A stretch of DNA of 64,000 nucleotides from Phycisphaerae bacterium (GTDB lineage: Bacteria; Planctomycetota; Phycisphaerae; UBA1845), in contig JAJDDQ010000030.1 in NCBI GenBank assembly GCA_029260215.1, positions 62,001 to 126,000 of the forward strand. The letters run 5' to 3'. The translations under genes were made by a program, and so were the position numbers. Shown piece by piece: positions 37,676 to 47,178 of the stretch. Numbering within the stretch: the stretch's first letter is position 1; every line of letters begins with the position of its first letter. Below the pieces are notes generated by a model that saw only the letters and a program-made list of their open reading frames with translations, did no database searches and was not told where the DNA came from.

Positions 37676-38515
37676 CTAATCGGGCAGGAGCACCGTCGTT
37701 GTTGGATGAGCTTCCCGCCACTCGCTCAGCGGCATGGGGGTTGGATTGTCGAGGAACTCGATACGCGCACCTCGTTTGGCTCCGGAAGTAGCTTCCAGGT
37801 GCTTCGGACCCGTCGGGTACCATACTGATTCGCCACCGCGATCGTAGAGCACAAAGATGTTATTCATTGTGTAGCCGGTCGTGCCAAACGTAACCACTCT
37901 GCCGTCGATCTCGCGTCCGTAAACTACGGACAGTTGGTCGAGCGGTCACCAGCCCACGGTGACGGGCTTTCCGCCCACGACGTCGTTGACGAGTTCGTGT
38001 CGATCAAGAATGTCGAGCGGGTAAGCCCTTGCATCGCCGGCGTGTGCGAAGCCAATGACCCGCGTGTCGTCGTCGATTCCGGCATCGATCAAACGCGCGT
38101 CATCGGCGTCGACGAATTGCGGCTCGTCGATGGACGGGATTTTGTCTTTGCCTATTCCGTACTGGAAGCGTTCCGGATCGATCTTGGATTCCGTCACGTC
38201 GAACCACTCTTCACTATGATCCTCGCCTGCATCGCGCGCCCACAGCAGCCTGCGTCCGTCGCGCTCGACAATCGGGCGGGAATGAAACTTGCTTGAGTGG
38301 CGTGCGAAAGGCATCAGGGGATCCAGGAATTCAAATGGCCCCAGCGTTTCGTCGGCGATGTAGACCGCGAACAGCAGGATCACGATCGACAGGCTGACAA
38401 CGCCCGCGCGCTGACCGAATGTTCGCGGTGCGCACGCGCATGAAGCACCGGCCCCGGTATCCACGGGCGTCGATTCCTGCCCGTGACTCGTATTTTCGTG
38501 TCCTTCTTGTGTCAT
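37676..38515 (-). CDS. DUF3179 family protein, candidate selenoprotein with in-frame TGA at 37946-37948
   Basis: Conventional translation stops after 189 residues at [10 protein letters not shown]. The same frame continues without interruption for 89 more codons: [36 protein letters not shown] and [14 protein letters not shown], which are the second half of DUF3179. In this family the block reads NDxxGGxPVxVTYCPLC, so the TGA replaces the first conserved Cys. A hairpin with a G-first loop follows 14 nt later. The whole product would be 279 residues with Sec at 190. The N-terminus has one membrane helix ([18 protein letters not shown]). It is ATGA-coupled to an rSAM/selenodomain-associated glycosyltransferase. 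A nonsense mutation is the alternative. Confidence 0.72.
37914..37932 (-). promoter_or_regulatory. SECIS-like hairpin downstream of the DUF3179 TGA
   Basis: In the mRNA sense, GUCCGUA pairs perfectly with UACGGAC around the loop GUU, with an extra U-G pair at the base (7-8 bp). The loop starts 22 nt after the UGA and its first base is G. I recall bacterial SECIS criteria as an upper stem of at least 4 bp, a G in the first two loop positions and 16-37 nt from UGA to loop; all are met. A weak lower stem (CUCG/CGAG) is also possible. Confidence 0.6.
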
Positions 38516-39282
38516 AACACTTGTTCCTTAATCACCATTCGGTGCAAATTCAAACCTGTCCGCTGCGTACGCACCATCGCGGGGCCTCTGCCGACTCGCC
38601 ACTGCGCGATGCGCGCCAGTGAGATGCCAAGCCAGTACGCCACGATGCACACCTGGTTAACAACAGTTGTCTGCCAAATGCCACGGACAATCCAACGGCG
38701 AGGCGACGTCACCACCGCCAGCGGCGAGACGGCAATTCGACCTGCACGCCGCAAGTACCGTATCAATGCGTAGTCCTCCATAATCGGCAAATTAGGAAAT
38801 CCCCCGATTTTTTCGAAAACCTCGGCCCTGATGAAAAGAGCCTGATCGCCGTAAGGCAATTGAAAGATGCGACTTCGAATATTTGCCGCTCTTTCGATGA
38901 GCCTGAAGGACCGCCCCTCGGCTTCGATCGACAACCGAAACGCGCACGCGACTACGTTCGGCTGCTTGATGTCCCGAAGAACAGCCTCGTCGAAGTCCTG
39001 CGGAAGCGTCGTGTCAGCGTGCAGGAACAGGAGAACCTCGCCGCGGGCGATTGCGGCCCCGGCGTTCATCTGCTGCGCGCGACCACGTTGAGCGCGCATG
39101 ACCTTGGCACCAGCATCGAGCGCAAATCTCACCGTTCGGTCCGTGCTGCCGCCATCCACGACGATGACTTCGATTGCGTTCCCGTGCGCGGACCGGATCG
39201 CCGCGACAATCGTGGCCTCTTCGTTGAGCGCGGGGATGATTACTGATATTCGAGGCGCATCGGCGCTTGTTCCTGGCGTCAT
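38512..39282 (-). CDS. Family 2 glycosyltransferase, rSAM/selenodomain-associated transferase 2 type
   Basis: A 256-residue protein with ISVIIPALNEEATI, VIVVDGGSTDRT, the very conserved RGRAQQMNAGAAIARGEVLL and LHADTTLP (DxD), then GGFPNLPIMEDYAL. This pattern identifies the TIGR04283 group, which I recall as rSAM/selenodomain-associated, found with ArsS in arsenosugar loci. The stop overlaps the DUF3179 start (ATGA). A C-terminal helix may anchor it. The radical SAM gene ArsS lies 2.2 kb upstream on the same strand. Confidence 0.82.
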   Translation of the reverse strand: MTPGTSADAPRISVIIPALNEEATIVAAIRSAHGNAIEVIVVDGGSTDRTVRFALDAGAKVMRAQRGRAQQMNAGAAIARGEVLLFLHADTTLPQDFDEAVLRDIKQPNVVACAFRLSIEAEGRSFRLIERAANIRSRIFQLPYGDQALFIRAEVFEKIGGFPNLPIMEDYALIRYLRRAGRIAVSPLAVVTSPRRWIVRGIWQTTVVNQVCIVAYWLGISLARIAQWRVGRGPAMVRTQRTGLNLHRMVIKEQVL

Positions 39283-39379: not shown

Positions 39380-40528
39380 CTACATTCGTTCCACAAGACG
39401 ATCGATCAAGAAGCCGGATTGCTCCATGGCCTGCTCGCGAAGCGGGCCAAAGAACTCTGCGACCTCGGCGAAAACGCGTTCAAAAGCATCGTGATCTTCG
39501 TCGACCACGATTTTCTGCAGGTGTTTGGCCGACTCAACGAAGGCGTCCGTCACGGCTGGGGTGGCAGGGTTGGACATCTCGATCGACGCATACAAGTTCG
39601 ATGATTGCGCGAAATGACGGGCCGTCATCATCAACTCCATCAGGTACACCGGCGAAGTAAACTGCAAGGTCTCCTGAAGGTTCACGTCGAGATTCGTGAG
39701 CGTTCTGCCCATCACTTCCGTCGCGAAATGCACGAGCACCTGCACAATGGACATTGCTCGGTCGTGCTGATCCGGTGTGCTTTCGAATACGACCAAGCCT
39801 CGGGCGCAAAACATCTGGTGCAGCCAATCAAACCACGCATCGCCCCGCCCACGACACAGCGCCACGCGCTGTCCCTGCAACGAATGCACGGAAGGGCCAA
39901 ACAACGGATGGGTTCCGATGACACTGCTGCGACAAGACTCCATCATCGCGTTGACGGGAGCCACCTTGATTGATGTTACATCCATGAGCAAAGCGTCCTC
40001 TCGAATGAGAGGGCCAATGCACTTTATCGTTTCCACTGTTGTATCGATCGGAACGCTCACGACGACCACATCTGCTACGGCCGCAGCCTCCTCAATCGTC
40101 AATTCCGTGTCCATGTCGGCGATCATGACGACATGTCCCAGATCACCGAACAACGTGGACATGCAGCGTCCCATTTGGCCATGCCCACCAATGATTGCGA
40201 CCGTCCGTGACTCACAATCGATCGGAAGCTCAGCTCTTAAGGCCGCCTGCCGGTCACGACTTCCCCGCAGGATCAGGCGAAAAACGCTCTCGAGGAGTTC
40301 GCCGGATAGGCCCAATTGACGGGCGCGATCGCATCGATCGTTCAGGAGTTCCCGCTCGCGACGATGATCGCGTATGCCGACCCCATGCACCCGTTTGTAT
40401 TGCGCAACTTCGGCGACCAACGCATTGCGGCGCGCGAAAAGGTGCAAGACATCGCGATCGACAGAATCGATCATCGCCCTGAGAACCGATAATGACAGTG
40501 GACTCTTTTCGGTGTTCTCCGGCATCAC
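39380..40528 (-). CDS. tyrA: T-protein: chorismate mutase/prephenate dehydrogenase
   Basis: A 382-residue protein, similar in length to enterobacterial TyrA. Residues 10-95 are an AroQ chorismate mutase (LRAMIDSVDRDVLHLFARRN, VAQYKRVHGV). The dehydrogenase follows with the NAD-binding turn VAIIGGHGQMGRCMSTLFGD and the catalytic region VIGTHPLFGPSVHSL. It converts chorismate to prephenate and then to 4-hydroxyphenylpyruvate for tyrosine. No other aromatic-amino-acid gene adjoins it; it sits between DUF547 and the glycosyltransferase, probably as a read-through neighbour. Confidence 0.92.
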   Translation of the reverse strand: MMPENTEKSPLSLSVLRAMIDSVDRDVLHLFARRNALVAEVAQYKRVHGVGIRDHRRERELLNDRCDRARQLGLSGELLESVFRLILRGSRDRQAALRAELPIDCESRTVAIIGGHGQMGRCMSTLFGDLGHVVMIADMDTELTIEEAAAVADVVVVSVPIDTTVETIKCIGPLIREDALLMDVTSIKVAPVNAMMESCRSSVIGTHPLFGPSVHSLQGQRVALCRGRGDAWFDWLHQMFCARGLVVFESTPDQHDRAMSIVQVLVHFATEVMGRTLTNLDVNLQETLQFTSPVYLMELMMTARHFAQSSNLYASIEMSNPATPAVTDAFVESAKHLQKIVVDEDHDAFERVFAEVAEFFGPLREQAMEQSGFLIDRLVERM

Positions 40529-40579: not shown

Positions 40580-41524
40580 TCAGCGGTTGTTTCTTCGGTC
40601 ATTGAGCTTCCAATCGTAGTCGAGCCATTTGATTCGCAGCTTCGTTCGTTTGTCCACAGACGCTTTTAGCGGCACGGAGTAACGCGCGGCGAACGCAAGC
40701 ACGGAGTCTGCAACCTGCTTGAAGTCCGCACCGTACCAGTCGTAGAGTTTCGTCAAACGAACCTCCTTCGCGCCCGGTTGATATTGAAACCAGCGATCGT
40801 GGGCATGCACGTATCGCGTCTGGTCTTCCAGTTGTTCCTCGATTTTTGACGCATCGTAAGCTTCGTTGCGCAGCTTCGGGCAGCCGATCGCTGCACAGAC
40901 CAGCGCAAAGTGTATGCGCGGCTCGGCGAATTTCGGCCTGATTTGCTCGTGCTCGATCTGATTCAGGCTGAGCGTCATTCCGCCCAGATGCCACCGTTTT
41001 GCGTCCCAGCGCTTCGCGGCGGGAATGTCCTTGATGGTCATGATGGGATAGTAATCGAGGATCAGCCGGAGCGTGAACGCGTTGTAGGCGTTGATGAGCA
41101 ACGCGAGTTTCACATCACGATCAAGCTCGGCGAAGGCTACGTCCCCAAGTCGAGCAATGTAGGCATCCAAAGTTGCGGACTCCTTGAGCAGCCCGGCGTA
41201 GTCAATCCAACCGGCGGCGTCGACATGTTTGCGAAGCAAGGCGTCGAACGCGGAGTGGTCGAACGTCGGCCCGTCGGCTCGATGTTGATAGGCCTCTTGA
41301 AGCGTGACCGGTGCCATACCGAACAGGGCTTTCAGTACATCGCGTCGCTTGTACGCTTGACCAGCGACAACTAGCGTCGCAATAACGATCAACACAATTG
41401 AGACGCTTCTGACGGCTCCCGAGCGCCGACGCATCGCCGCCGACAGACGGCTCGCCAGCGTCGGTCGTAAAACCGTTTCCGGTGCGAAGACGCTTGTTGC
41501 GGTTGTTCGCGGTATCTCACTCAA
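40580..41524 (-). CDS. Membrane-anchored DUF547 protein
   Basis: About 314 residues when started at the TTG overlapping the ArsS stop (TTGA); ATG 41434, just before the membrane helix VSIVLIVIATLVVAG, is a good alternative. The DUF547 hallmarks are present: LLINAYNAFTLRLILDYYP, SLNQIEHEQIRPKF, and RIHFALVCAAIGCPKLRNEAY with the conserved Cys. The family resembles a Cys-His hydrolase fold, but its substrate is unproven. It is placed outside the membrane by its N-terminal anchor and often accompanies ArsS in similar loci. Confidence 0.82.
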   Translation of the reverse strand: MSEIPRTTATSVFAPETVLRPTLASRLSAAMRRRSGAVRSVSIVLIVIATLVVAGQAYKRRDVLKALFGMAPVTLQEAYQHRADGPTFDHSAFDALLRKHVDAAGWIDYAGLLKESATLDAYIARLGDVAFAELDRDVKLALLINAYNAFTLRLILDYYPIMTIKDIPAAKRWDAKRWHLGGMTLSLNQIEHEQIRPKFAEPRIHFALVCAAIGCPKLRNEAYDASKIEEQLEDQTRYVHAHDRWFQYQPGAKEVRLTKLYDWYGADFKQVADSVLAFAARYSVPLKASVDKRTKLRIKWLDYDWKLNDRRNNR

Positions 41525-42513
41525 ACGATTGCCCCCCCGCAAGACGACCCCTCACCGGCGGTGCAGCCGAAGCAGTGCTCGCCGGTGCCGATCCTTCGGT
41601 CGACAAGCGACGAAGCATCGAAATCCTGAATGTTTCGAGGAAGCCCATTCCGTGTCGACATCCCCAGAGCGTAGTTGAAATCGCAATCGTGGAGCGTCCC
41701 ATCCCAGCTCACGTGTATCTGCCGGCGACACATCAGTCCATCGAGCGTTTCAGGATTGAACGACTCACGCAGCAGGCGCAGGTATTTTTCATCTTGGCTG
41801 TCACGACGCAGATCGTGCAGGAATCGGCCTATCGGCATATTCGTGATCGTGTGGAGTTGAGTGAACCGGACATCGAAGCGCTGCTGAAGTTCGCGCCGGT
41901 AGTCTCGTTCCAGGTCGGCCTGCCCGGGCGGCAGTGACGGACCGGCGGGATTGTAAACAAGGGTCAACGTCAGGTCGGGATCGATTCCGTATCCGACCGA
42001 ATTCAGTCGCTGGATCACGTCGATGCTGTTCTCGTACACGCGCAGGCCGCGTTGCCGATCGACGTTCTCCGAGAGGTAGCACGGCAGCGACGCTACAAGT
42101 TGAACGCGATGGTCGCGATAGAACTCAGGCAAGTCGGTGTATCCTTCGTGCTGGAGGATCGTCAGATTCGTACGCACCAACACCTCGATGTTCTCACTTC
42201 GCATAAGCGTCACGAAGCGCCGGAAGTTGGGATTCATTTCCGGCGCGCCGCCGGTGATATCGAGCGTCTTGACGCCGGCCTGTGTCGCAGCCTGGTACAC
42301 GTGCAGCATGGTTGGCCAATCCATCTGTTCTGTACGTTTGGGCGAAGATTCCACATGACAATGGCGACAGGCCAAGTCGCAGGTCAGACCGACGTTGACC
42401 TGCATTGTTTCGATCGACCGCGCACGCAACGGCTCGCCGCAAGCGGCTTCGACGCGCGCATCGAAACCGTCGTCTCTGTGAACAGTCAATGGAATCGCAA
42501 TCGTCGCACTCAT
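41521..42513 (-). CDS. arsS: ArsS-type radical SAM protein (arsenosugar biosynthesis), Cys form
   Basis: A 330-residue protein. The radical SAM cluster motif is CDLACRHCHVE (C-x3-C-x2-C), followed by TLDITGGAPEMNP. The C-terminal Cys-rich DUF3641-like part has CRRQIHVSWDGTLHDCDFN and the signature HCFGCTAGEGSSCGGA. In many relatives this end carries selenocysteine (TIGR04167, arsenosugar biosynthesis radical SAM (seleno)protein); here Cys codons are present. It is thought to make deoxyadenosyl-arsenic intermediates. No ArsM methyltransferase is seen nearby. Confidence 0.85.
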   Translation of the reverse strand: MSATIAIPLTVHRDDGFDARVEAACGEPLRARSIETMQVNVGLTCDLACRHCHVESSPKRTEQMDWPTMLHVYQAATQAGVKTLDITGGAPEMNPNFRRFVTLMRSENIEVLVRTNLTILQHEGYTDLPEFYRDHRVQLVASLPCYLSENVDRQRGLRVYENSIDVIQRLNSVGYGIDPDLTLTLVYNPAGPSLPPGQADLERDYRRELQQRFDVRFTQLHTITNMPIGRFLHDLRRDSQDEKYLRLLRESFNPETLDGLMCRRQIHVSWDGTLHDCDFNYALGMSTRNGLPRNIQDFDASSLVDRRIGTGEHCFGCTAGEGSSCGGAIV

Positions 42514-42517
42514 TGTG

Positions 42518-43648
42518 TCAGCTTCCGAATCGTGTCAGTGTCCAGTATATGGCAGCGCCGAGCACCGCCCCCATCGGCAAAGTCGTCATCCATGTCGCGA
42601 AGATTCGCGCGATCGTGCCCCACCGCGCACTGCGGCTGGCCATGCCGATTCCAAAAATCGCACCACACGATACATGCGTGGTCGAAACAGGCACACCCAG
42701 CCTCGACGCGCCCAAGACGAGTGCAGCCGTAATCAGATTGCCGGTCAAGCCCTGCCCAGGGTTCAGATCGGTGATACGCTTACTCATTGTCTCGGCGACC
42801 TTCCTGGAATTCAACAGTCCGCCGAGCGCCATCGCAGCCGCGACCAATCCAAGCTTCCAACTCACACCGGCTGCCCCGGCAGCCAACAGCAACGCAGCGA
42901 TTTTCGGCGTGTCGTTTACCGCCCGGGCAAAGCATACCGCAATGCCGCTGAGCGCGTGCGTATTGTTGACCAGAGCCAGGGCGCTGACACCCATTACGCG
43001 GCCATCATAGCGTTCGGTGCATTGCTCGCGCGAGGCGATCGTGAAACTCGGACCACCGCCGGCCGGGACCGCGACGAAGGCGGCGCCGTCCCGCATTAGT
43101 TGCACGGGCTGCGGTGCGGTGTCGCCCACACAAACGCAGGTTTGGCGTGTAATGCCGAACCGTCGCCGAGCACGGTGAAACAAAGGGTACAGCAATGCTG
43201 CGGCGCCGATCGCGAGAATCGGGCTGACCAGGAGCGGCAGGAAAAAGGAATCCCACAGCTTCCCCAAATTAGCGTGGCCGTGACCGACGACAAGGGCGAC
43301 ACCGGCCAGCGCCCCGGTCAGCGCGTGCGTGGTTGAGGTCGGCATGCCCAGGAACGTCGCCAGCAAAATCGTAATCGCACCGGCGGCAGCAACCGCAATC
43401 AACAGCTCACTGCTTTGTGTGAGTTCCAGCGGGACAAGCCCCTTTCCGGTGAAGGATTTGGCCAGCGAGCCGGCCAGCAGGATCGACAGAACGCTTCCGG
43501 CAAGTGTAGCGACCGTGGTCCACGACAGCGCGGTGCGATGGCTGACCGCTCCACTGCCGTACAACGTTGCGACGCCTTTGAAATTGTCGTTGGCACCGTT
43601 GCTGTACGCCAGCCCGAACACGACCACGATCAGAATAGCCAATGTCAT
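42518..43648 (-). CDS. PiT-family inorganic phosphate (arsenate) permease
   Basis: A 376-residue protein with about ten hydrophobic helices. The two internally repeated PiT signatures are NGANDNFKGVATLYGSGA at the N-terminus and GIAVCFARAVNDTPKIAALL in the second half, with MPTSTTHALTGALAG and VPVSTTHVSCGAIFG as matching transport motifs. A soluble loop around residues 170-215 has GDTAPQPVQLMRDG. It imports phosphate, and by similarity arsenate, with cation symport. It ends 5 bp before ArsS and is probably the first gene of that operon. Confidence 0.85.
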   Translation of the reverse strand: MTLAILIVVVFGLAYSNGANDNFKGVATLYGSGAVSHRTALSWTTVATLAGSVLSILLAGSLAKSFTGKGLVPLELTQSSELLIAVAAAGAITILLATFLGMPTSTTHALTGALAGVALVVGHGHANLGKLWDSFFLPLLVSPILAIGAAALLYPLFHRARRRFGITRQTCVCVGDTAPQPVQLMRDGAAFVAVPAGGGPSFTIASREQCTERYDGRVMGVSALALVNNTHALSGIAVCFARAVNDTPKIAALLLAAGAAGVSWKLGLVAAAMALGGLLNSRKVAETMSKRITDLNPGQGLTGNLITAALVLGASRLGVPVSTTHVSCGAIFGIGMASRSARWGTIARIFATWMTTLPMGAVLGAAIYWTLTRFGS

Positions 43649-44006: not shown

Positions 44007-44891
44007 CTAATTCACCGCATACTTCGCGGGGTTATTCTTGAACATGTCCAACTGCATGCGGCTGGGGAAGAGGTATCGCTTCCCCAGATAGTCGACGGCC
44101 AGGTCGGCTCTCCCTTTGACGTCTTTGCCCTTCTCGACCTTGCATACAGCACAATATCCGTTCATCGCCAAGTCTGCGTCGGCGTACCGATCCGGGTTGG
44201 CTTTGAACATGTCGAGCTGTTTCTGTGACGGGAACAGGTAGAGGCGGCCGTCGTGCATCAAATGAAACTCCGCGATGCCGGGTACGTCCTTTCGCTTCTC
44301 CACTTTGCAAACGGTGCAGTTGCCGTGCATGGCCGGGACGAATGCGGCGGGATTCGTGTCGAACATGTGCTGCTGATCAGGCCCCGGAAACAGATAACGT
44401 TCGCCGTCGTACACACTGGCGTACTCCGGCTTGCCGACTACGACCTTGTCCGACTTTACAAGACATACGGGGCAAGCACCGCCGAGCGCCAGACCAGCAT
44501 CGACATACCGGTGCGGATTGCGCTCGAACATTTTCTGCTGCTTTTTCCCGGGGAAGAGATAGAGTCGCCCGTCGTGAACCGTGCGAAACTCAGCCTTGCC
44601 GGCCACCTGCTTGCCTTTTTCGATTTTGCAGACAGCACAATCACCACCGAGCACGGGAACAAAAGCCGCAGGATTCGCGTCGAACATGCGCTTCTGTTTG
44701 GCCATCGGAAACAAGTAGGTCTTTCCGTCGAAAACCGACGAAAAGCTTGGATCGCCCTTCACGAGCTTGTCCTTTTTGACGAGACACACAGGGCAATTTC
44801 CGTCCAATGCCGGCTGCGGTGCCGCTGCTGACACGACGCCCGAACCAAAAATGAACAACGCACACACTGCTGAAAACACACATTTTCTCAT
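44007..44891 (-). CDS. Exported protein of five YHS/TRASH-like Cys repeats
   Basis: The start is ATG 44891 with AGGAGA upstream; 294 residues with signal peptide (CVFSAVCALFIFGSGVVSAA). The mature part is five tandem repeats of about 50-55 residues: C-x-VC-x8-V-x-G, then DG-x-x-YLFP-x6-MF-x-x-NP-x-x-(F/Y). Each has a C-x2-C pair and an aromatic core like YHS or TRASH metal-binding domains. It may bind copper or another soft metal outside the cytoplasm. It follows a small membrane-protein gene and is near a divergent ECF sigma pair. Confidence 0.72.
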   Translation of the reverse strand: MRKCVFSAVCALFIFGSGVVSAAAPQPALDGNCPVCLVKKDKLVKGDPSFSSVFDGKTYLFPMAKQKRMFDANPAAFVPVLGGDCAVCKIEKGKQVAGKAEFRTVHDGRLYLFPGKKQQKMFERNPHRYVDAGLALGGACPVCLVKSDKVVVGKPEYASVYDGERYLFPGPDQQHMFDTNPAAFVPAMHGNCTVCKVEKRKDVPGIAEFHLMHDGRLYLFPSQKQLDMFKANPDRYADADLAMNGYCAVCKVEKGKDVKGRADLAVDYLGKRYLFPSRMQLDMFKNNPAKYAVN

Positions 44892-44947
44892 GACTCTTGA
44901 ATCTCCTGACTGTTTGTGACAAGTCGAACGCGACTCCAGCGATTCTC

Positions 44948-45577
44948 TCAACGAGCCGCACCGTAATTCTTGAAAGGCACCAAGAAGGCAAGAACACGTT
45001 CCGGGACGCGCTCAATAGGCCAATCCGCAAGTACCTGTTGCATATCCGTGAACGGCGCTCCGCACCGCTGCTTTTTCCAAGACGCTTCGAATGAGCAGTC
45101 TGCGGCTGCGCGAAGCGCATTGAATTCGTCCACCGTCCAATCGACGACATGCCGCTCGATCCGACCGTCCGCCGAAACCACAATGACCTGCGGGCCTCGC
45201 AGGCGTGTTCGCATTGATTCACGCGGCGTCCGAATCGCGACGACGGTATGCACACCCGCGAGACGGCTTAGCGACTGTGTGGTTTTGACGTCGATTTTTT
45301 CACGATCCAACGCGGACAGCAGAATGAATCCGGGTTGATCCTCGGTCATGCCCACAGCCAGAAACCCGCCTGCGAGATTGGGCGTGTACTCGACCGTATC
45401 AGCGTTGGCGGTCGTGCCGATCCGGTGGTAGGCGGAGTACACACCCGCAATCGCAAGCGATGCAAGTGCGGTCATCGCGACCGGGTTGATCCGTCGCCGG
45501 CAGGTCGTGTTTGCGGGATTCTCCGAAGCGAAGATGACACCGCATCGTGTGACAAGCGCTGGCGTTGAATCCGACAA
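44948..45577 (-). CDS. Conserved-looking membrane-anchored protein of unknown function
   Basis: A 209-residue protein starting at TTG 45577 with GGAG eight bases upstream. One hydrophobic helix (AMTALASLAIAGVYSAYH) is followed by a beta-rich region (GGFLAVGMTEDQPGFILL, VHTVVAIRTPRESM, PQVIVVSADGRIERHVVDW). The last 70 residues contain two Cys (AADCSFEASWKKQRCGAPF) that could form a disulphide or bind metal. I do not recognise the family. It precedes the YHS-repeat gene by 56 bp, so the two probably form one unit. Confidence 0.6.
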   Translation of the reverse strand: MSDSTPALVTRCGVIFASENPANTTCRRRINPVAMTALASLAIAGVYSAYHRIGTTANADTVEYTPNLAGGFLAVGMTEDQPGFILLSALDREKIDVKTTQSLSRLAGVHTVVAIRTPRESMRTRLRGPQVIVVSADGRIERHVVDWTVDEFNALRAAADCSFEASWKKQRCGAPFTDMQQVLADWPIERVPERVLAFLVPFKNYGAAR

Positions 45578-45829: not shown

Positions 45830-46402
45830 ATGGGTCGAAAAAAACCTTCCAGGGATTTTCTTGATTTGCTGGAACCGATCAGGGACTCCCTCTACGGCTA
45901 CGCGCACCGTGCGGTCTGGCGGGAAGACCAGGTGCCTGACGTCGTTCAGGAAGCGTTCATGACGGGATGGCGCGAATTCAAGCGGTTTGAGCCGGGGACA
46001 AATTTCCGCGCCTGGATGTTCCAGATTCTGGTCAACACGATTTTTCGCCTCAACAAGCGTACCGGCCGACAACGCGAAGTTGCGATGGAAGAAGCGCACT
46101 GCGATTTGTACGCAGCCATCGAACGAGAGAGTGCCTGGACCGGACTTCTGGAGCAGCCGGACATGCTGATGCAACTGCTCGATGAGCGCCTGGTGCGCTC
46201 GCTGGAACGACTCGGCCCCGATGAACGCCAGTGTTTCCTTCTCAGGCTCCTGGAAGGATTTTCCTACAAGGAGATCGCCGCCATGTTGAGCATTCCGCTT
46301 GGAACGGTGATGTCGCATGTGCATCGAGCGCGCATGAAACTGCGCGAGGAACTGGCTGCGTTGGCCGTTGAGCACGGATTGATTAAGGAGGCGGCCCAAT
46401 GA
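45830..46402 (+). CDS. ECF-type RNA polymerase sigma factor
   Basis: A 190-residue protein. Region 2 is DLLEPIRDSLYGYAHRAVW with VPDVVQEAFMTGWREFKRFE and FRAWMFQILVNTIF, which match ECF region 2.1-2.4. Region 4 is LGPDERQCFLLRLLEGFSYKE, with IAAMLSIPLGTVMSHVHRAR as the DNA-binding helix-turn-helix. The stop overlaps the next start (ATGA), the usual arrangement with the cognate anti-sigma. Target promoters are unknown; the divergent YHS-repeat unit is a candidate. Confidence 0.92.
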   Translation: MGRKKPSRDFLDLLEPIRDSLYGYAHRAVWREDQVPDVVQEAFMTGWREFKRFEPGTNFRAWMFQILVNTIFRLNKRTGRQREVAMEEAHCDLYAAIERESAWTGLLEQPDMLMQLLDERLVRSLERLGPDERQCFLLRLLEGFSYKEIAAMLSIPLGTVMSHVHRARMKLREELAALAVEHGLIKEAAQ

Positions 46403-47178
46403 ATTGCAAAGAGGCCCGACGCTGGATGAGTCCGTACCTGGATTCGGAACTGGGGCAAACCAAGACGTTCGAGGTCAGCGAACACTTGCGTCAATGTTCA
46501 AAATGTACAGACCGCTTCGGCAACGAGCGTAATGTGGACAAGGCCATGCGTTCACGGCTAGCGGACACGGCGATGCCGGCGGAGCAATGGTCGGAATTCC
46601 AATGGGAACTGGCGGCGCCGACATGGGTTCGCTTTCTCAGCGGTCGCCGAAGTCTGGCGCTGGCCGCCTGCCTGACGATCGCGACGATCTCAACAATGGT
46701 AGCGCTTCAGTCTCGCGACAAACACGCGGGCACACCCGAAATCGCATTGCGTTTCGTGGCGGAAGCACCCGAAGGCCACCCGTTTCAGGTGTCGGATGGG
46801 GGAGCGGACTCGGTCGAAATCACTGTTAAAAACGAATTCGGCTTGCAGCTCGCGTCGCCCGCCGATGTGGAAGCGATGGGGCACCGCAATTTCCAACTCG
46901 TTGGCGCGTCCCGCCGGACCGACGCTGACGGGCGATCATACGTCGAAGTGCGATTGAACTGCTGTGGCCACCCCGTTCTTGTAACGCTCGCGCGGCCCGT
47001 CGATGGCGAGTTGCCTAGCCCCTTCGACCAGCTCACGCCCGGGCTTGCGGATGGTACGGCAGCTCTCGAAGACGGCATCAAACTCGCATATGAAACGATA
47101 GGCTCCGTTCATGTCGTCGTAGCTTCGCGCCATCCGGTGGAGCATATTCTCGGAGTCTTTGTGGACGAAAACGTTTAG
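46399..47178 (+). CDS. Zinc-finger anti-sigma factor (ZAS/zf-HC2 type)
   Basis: A 259-residue protein with the zinc site Cys3 and H-x3-C-x2-C in EHLRQCSKC. One membrane helix is near residue 80 (LALAACLTIATISTMVAL). The outer part of about 160 residues (DSVEITVKNEFGLQLASP, VRLNCCGHPVLVTLAR) would sense an extracytoplasmic signal; the CC pair may respond to metal or redox. Coupled by 4-bp overlap to the sigma factor. The signal is inferred, not shown. Confidence 0.85.
   Translation: MNCKEARRWMSPYLDSELGQTKTFEVSEHLRQCSKCTDRFGNERNVDKAMRSRLADTAMPAEQWSEFQWELAAPTWVRFLSGRRSLALAACLTIATISTMVALQSRDKHAGTPEIALRFVAEAPEGHPFQVSDGGADSVEITVKNEFGLQLASPADVEAMGHRNFQLVGASRRTDADGRSYVEVRLNCCGHPVLVTLARPVDGELPSPFDQLTPGLADGTAALEDGIKLAYETIGSVHVVVASRHPVEHILGVFVDENV

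Follow-up and report, generated by a model that had tools for sequence, protein, structure and literature searches.

A gene for a DUF3179 protein on the minus strand of the window, the 64,000-nucleotide stretch of Phycisphaerae DNA analysed here, carries a TGA codon within its reading frame. Is this codon translated as selenocysteine (Sec), or is the gene broken? The first-pass annotation, which gave the coordinates of the gene and the TGA correctly but did not state the strand (Table 1), had also counted 89 codons between the TGA and the terminal TAG, and this count is exact. The similarity to the family continues across the TGA, as had been claimed: the read-through product matches PF11376 at 131.8 bits (gathering cut-off 27) over residues 123-276, whereas the part before the TGA scores 65.4 bits alone, so that read-through doubles the score. 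The further claim that these codons carry the protein to the usual end of the family has to be withdrawn. The product covers only positions 1-147 of the 292 in the model, not its full length, and it ends like a distinct one-unit form of the protein.

The residues around the site read [14 protein letters not shown]. The TGA stands before PL, as the annotation had it, but two residues past GGKPVTV and not directly after it. The proposed alignment with the CPLC motif of relatives likewise survives in half: the first Cys has its counterpart in U190, while the second has none, the residue at U+3 of the source protein being Asp. Under table 11, the standard code, the gene is called as a protein of 189 aa, and none of the NCBIfam models matches its product; automatic annotation therefore probably truncates the gene, as had been predicted.

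Table 1 Features of the Sec-DUF3179 locus and its surroundings (positions in the window).
Feature	Position	Strand	Details
Sec-DUF3179 gene	37676..38515	-	279 aa with U190; ATG start, TAG stop 37678-37676
In-frame TGA (U190)	37946..37948	-	TGA shared by 50 homologous genes; replaced by a Cys codon in some short-form relatives
SECIS-type hairpin	37914..37932	-	7-bp stem UGUCCGU/ACGGACG; apical loop AGUUU 37925-37921; 20 nt from UGA to loop
Likely single transmembrane helix near N terminus	38354..38404	-	about [17 protein letters not shown]; by eye from sequence
TIGR04283 arsenosugar biosynthesis glycosyltransferase	38512..39282	-	255 bits, cut-off 182
Fused chorismate mutase/prephenate dehydrogenase	39380..40528	-	between glycosyltransferase and DUF547
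DUF547 protein	40580..41542	-	fused to Sec-DUF3179 domain in L097
ArsS, arsenosugar biosynthesis radical SAM protein	41521..42513	-	TIGR04167 421.9 bits, cut-off 300
PHO4-type (Pit-like) phosphate transporter	42518..43648	-	PF01384 198.8 bits
Four YHS (seleno)protein domain repeats	44007-44951	-	NF041384
ECF sigma factor and zf-HC2 anti-sigma factor	45830-47178	+	

A search of 397 genomes of the source organism's class with the read-through protein yielded about 40 homologues that each contain a single in-frame TGA. In all of the loci first inspected (30/30), the TGA follows W or Y and precedes PL, typically as GKPVTVGW[TGA]PL. Further loci enlarged the set to at least 50 distinct genes, drawn from independent assemblies and several phyla, and the TGA lies at the same site in 50/50; the aligned cores of these Sec homologues are ~42-78% identical to the source protein. 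Such a pattern excludes chance and upholds the argument against a random nonsense mutation, and the alignment proposed as a check gives homologues with either TGA (at least 50) or Cys at the site. One contig labelled as an Alphaproteobacteria MAG (L158) agrees in both length and match position with G022:C35, which belongs to the source organism's own family, and its organism label is probably wrong.

To place the Cys relatives, we built a tree of 98 sequences, in which the one-unit proteins form a clade (support 100/98-99) of 58 Sec and 6 Cys members. Three of the Cys forms (L172, L191, and L173; Rhodothermaceae, Bacteroidetes, Gemmatimonadetes) are nested within the Sec clade (100/99); the second Cys group (L076, L107, and L109) has the motif YC[IV]LADL. 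In all six of these short-form relatives, Cys occupies the TGA position.

Immediately downstream of the TGA, the genes encode a SECIS-type hairpin. A gap-free alignment of the 48 bases from the TGA in 38 sequences reveals a stem of 7 pairs (positions 17-23 with 29-35) closed by a 5-base loop, NGUNN. Every cell is paired (266/266, 100%), with changes on both sides at 2 pairs; none of 500 shuffles reached the observed covariation, and pairing falls to 17-53% when the partner strand is slid by 1 to 3 columns. When the count was later extended to 50 sequences, all 7 pairs were intact in 49/50 and the loop xGUxx was present in 50/50, and four of the stem pairs occurred in two or more compensated forms. 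Most stems read GUCCGU/ACGGAC, and variants include GGCUGU/ACAGCC (L087, L132) and GGGUGC/GCACCC (L137). The loop GU counts for less than the stem, because a conserved Val codon partly imposes it.

Codon choice within the hairpin is strongly constrained. TCC encodes the Ser of the 5' arm in 45/45 sequences (background 22%, P=3e-30) and GGA the Gly of the 3' arm in 43/46 (background 18%, P=1e-28), whereas a Gly at codon 15, just outside the hairpin, is encoded at background frequencies. Published criteria for a bSECIS call for a loop of 3-9 nt, a stem of 4-16 bp, a G in loop positions 1-2, a spacing of 16-37 nt, and an MFE <= -7.5 (PMC13188914); here the loop has 5 nt with G as its second base, the stem has 7 bp, the spacing is 20 nt, and the 40-nt MFE is <= -7.5 in 50/50 Sec sequences. 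Energy alone is weak evidence in this case, since the margin over synonymous recodings is modest (mean z -1.3; for the source gene, 9.5% of recodings are equally stable). The nested Cys forms L172, L173, and L191 lack the hairpin, with energies of -3.0, -2.4, and 0.0 kcal/mol, respectively, compared to a Sec mean of -10.0 kcal/mol.

The genes for Sec insertion, which the annotation had suggested looking for, were found in the source assembly with one exception. selA (558.9 bits) and selB (375.4 bits) lie side by side on contig C37 and selD (363.9 bits) is on C34, all of them over curated cut-offs. tRNA-Sec was not found in the source assembly (97% complete, 88 contigs) with the Rfam model, a pattern, or a relative's gene. 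In most of 40 relatives it scores over the cut-off, and ARAGORN confirms 10/10 of those tested. Its absence here is likely due to a gap in an 88-contig draft; the genes around selC differ between genomes, so that synteny is no guide to such a gap. The source selD gene (G000:C34:22037-22960, L021) has an in-frame TGA of its own and encodes a Sec-containing SelD. TGA also serves as an ordinary stop in this genome; the ArsS gene at the same locus ends in TGA.

Taken together, the conserved TGA, the exchange of Cys and Sec, the covarying hairpin with its strong synonymous constraint, the selA, selB, and selD genes of the source organism, and the tRNA-Sec of its relatives make it very probable that the source gene encodes a real selenoprotein with Sec at residue 190. 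Could it instead be a pseudogene, an ordinary Cys protein hit by a nonsense mutation or an assembly error? A single TGA in a single MAG would look alike, and tRNA-Sec is missing from the assembly; but the occurrence of the same TGA in 50 genes from independent assemblies and several phyla already refutes this explanation, the frame is intact up to the TAG, and the hairpin codons are under constraint, so that we regard its probability as negligible. It is also highly improbable that a changed code or near-cognate suppression puts Trp or Cys at the UGA, or that a programmed stop yields two products. What the genes display directly is read-through, and both TGC and TGG are one base away from TGA. 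Against this, TGA is the normal stop of ArsS, the genome has intact selA, selB, and selD genes, relatives commonly carry tRNA-Sec, and the nearest relatives without TGA have Cys, not Trp, and no hairpin. The first-pass proposal of a candidate new selenoprotein is thus borne out by five lines of evidence as regards the selenoprotein but not as regards novelty at the level of the family, DUF3179 already being on a predicted list.

What kind of protein is this? In complete one-unit Sec copies, 85-139 residues follow U, compared to about 170-270 or more in long DUF3179 proteins. Among the 50 Sec sequences, U+3 is A in 28, V in 11, D in 7, and S in 4, and never Cys or Thr, and 42/50 cores have no Cys besides U; these two observations exclude a CxxC-type redox pair for the one-unit clade. 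Its Sec would work on its own or together with an external thiol. In the source protein, H173, E174, N177, D178, R201, D225, and W232 are conserved residues in the surroundings of U190. Long DUF3179 proteins frequently have Ser or Asn at the site, and by eye a further, degenerate unit possibly lies within them. The likely membrane helix comes after an Arg-containing stretch, which suggests that the domain faces outward; the part following the helix is probably outside the cytoplasm.

Several other groups of Sec-containing DUF3179 proteins came to light. A sister Sec group (Desulfobacterales, Nitrospirota, Handelsmanbacteria) has its own hairpin in a shifted register; L180, L181, L182, L185, L186, and L193 are short Sec-DUF3179 proteins from Desulfobacterales/Thermodesulfovibrionia with such a shifted-register hairpin. 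A further group (L077:8198-8890 (-) and L078:7266-7961 (-)) has WUPSEQ and not WUPL; the hairpin is in the matching position, but its stem differs in sequence.

We predicted the structure of the protein twice, first with a pLDDT of 71.5 and then from 75 sequences with a pLDDT of 96.1 and a pTM of 0.90. A Foldseek search of the PDB with both models gave no significant match, and neither a sequence search of the PDB nor one of PHROGs returned a relative. With VIA-align, nearly all the best matches of both models are Rieske domains, although these are weak (top Z 5.6-5.7 over ~92-95 residues). This raises the idea of a Rieske-like electron-transfer domain in which Sec has taken over from a lost [2Fe-2S] cluster. 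We consider this improbable: a Z below 6 is in the range of common arrangements and Foldseek sees nothing significant, the CxH/CxxH ligands are absent and most cores have no Cys besides U, and by strand order the Sec seems to sit in a hairpin away from the Rieske ligand sites.

The neighbourhood offers a clue to function. Sec-DUF3179 lies beside genes for ArsS and an arsenosugar glycosyltransferase, both over their cut-offs (Table 1), and the TGA stop of the glycosyltransferase gene shares bases with the DUF3179 start codon in an ATGA overlap. ArsM (arsenite methyltransferase) is encoded elsewhere in the source genome. To ask how often such genes co-occur, we counted over-cut-off ArsS and TIGR04283 genes in Sec-carrying genomes that lie within 10 kb of Sec-DUF3179: 6/26 ArsS genes (0.15 expected, P=1.6e-8; Poisson) and 8/22 TIGR04283 genes (0.14 expected, P=4e-12; Poisson) do so, P values that are too small because related genomes were treated as independent, with cases that span several genera. 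Elsewhere, a DUF547-DUF3179(Sec) fusion (L097:7808-9322 (+)) comes directly after ArsS in genome G212, and in G060 a Cys one-unit protein is found near ArsS, a Pit transporter, and DUF547.

The fused chorismate mutase/prephenate dehydrogenase is not an expected member of the pathway, even though it stands within what looks like a run of arsenosugar genes. The gene with four YHS repeats (NF041384), a near neighbour of the ArsS cluster, has no in-frame TGA. Relatives of the ECF sigma/anti-sigma pair immediately precede Sec-DUF3179 in L088 and L093, and in L084 they lie close to it, an arrangement that suggests a regulon shared by the pair and Sec-DUF3179.

Does the protein act in arsenical metabolism? 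Judging by its neighbours this is possible, if on balance somewhat doubtful; our best guess is a membrane-anchored selenol protein that would act on arsenicals. More tentatively still, and rather unlikely as a whole, the one-unit lone-Sec clade might carry out an unrecognised step of arsenosugar (organoarsenical) metabolism outside the cytoplasm, with no partner Cys and with DUF547 as a physical partner. Chances are about even that the protein is a real selenoprotein with no connection to arsenic, an exported thiol/selenol oxidoreductase of general function or a repair enzyme, whose proximity to ArsS is due to chance or regulation. Around most Sec loci, neither ArsS nor TIGR04283 occurs within 10 kb; neighbourhoods vary with no operon conserved across all of the loci, and the closest neighbours that L088 and L093 have in common are the ECF sigma/anti-sigma genes, which suggests a stress regulon. 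This reading has to contend with co-location far above chance in several genera, with the DUF547 fusion beside ArsS, and with the Cys short form from another family in the same setting. Since most Sec loci have other neighbours, the arsenic link may hold for only part of the clade.

As a working model, SelB, selenocysteyl-tRNA, and the hairpin directly after the UGA would together insert Sec at residue 190; the hairpin may depend on its cognate SelB. The product would have one N-terminal membrane anchor and a beta-rich domain, probably outside the cytoplasm, in which Sec would replace the single Cys of a one-unit DUF3179 that has no CxxC partner. The lone selenol would most likely bind or reduce a substrate and be reset by an outside thiol. 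If the neighbours of the source gene are a guide, its substrate in this lineage would most likely be an arsenical in or near arsenosugar metabolism.

These results delineate a well-supported selenoprotein subfamily in Planctomycetota, Sumerlaeota, Hydrogenedentota, Acidobacteria, and Gemmatimonadales, with a sister branch in Desulfobacterales, Nitrospirota, and Handelsmanbacteria, whose one-unit members standard annotation probably cuts in half. In the accessible literature, we found no published function for any DUF3179 protein and no paper naming a DUF3179 selenoprotein as part of an arsenosugar cluster. With no DUF3179 function found in searchable papers, the association with ArsS, the glycosyltransferase, and DUF547 provides a concrete functional lead, and the one-unit neighbourhood would tie selenium use to arsenic metabolism.

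How does this protein compare with known systems? DUF3179 is not new as a selenoprotein family. A DUF3179 domain-containing protein with UxxC/T is on the predicted-selenoprotein lists of two reviews (PMC9312934, PMC13188914), and the 2022 review traces it to the 2007 study of the Olavius symbiont (Zhang & Gladyshev). We did not find the one-unit lone-Sec clade, its taxonomic spread, or the arsenosugar link in the accessible literature, which for the 2007 predictions means the two reviews. Sec-containing SelD, a well-known selenoprotein, is likewise TGA-containing and encoded in the same genome, and it is an unrelated protein. As in ArsS/arsenosugar clusters (TIGR04167, TIGR04283), ArsS, the glycosyltransferase, DUF547, and the PHO4-type transporter are present here on the same strand; unlike the Sec-DUF3179 gene, ArsS has no in-frame TGA. 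Canonical long DUF3179 proteins (CPLC, SPLC, NPLC) share the motifs RAYP, HE.VND, GG.P..V, FG.SG, and YDR with the one-unit form; they are ~2x as long after the site, where many have Ser or Asn. The Thermoanaerobaculales protein L192 is full length, reads UPLC at the site, and continues for 195 residues past U, in keeping with the published UxxC/T kind. With that published selenoprotein, the one-unit clade has in common PF11376, Sec at the first Cys of CPLC, and Cys homologues; it differs in having A, V, D, or S at U+3 where the published motif has C/T, and in its shorter extension after U compared to the about 170-270 residues of the published kind.
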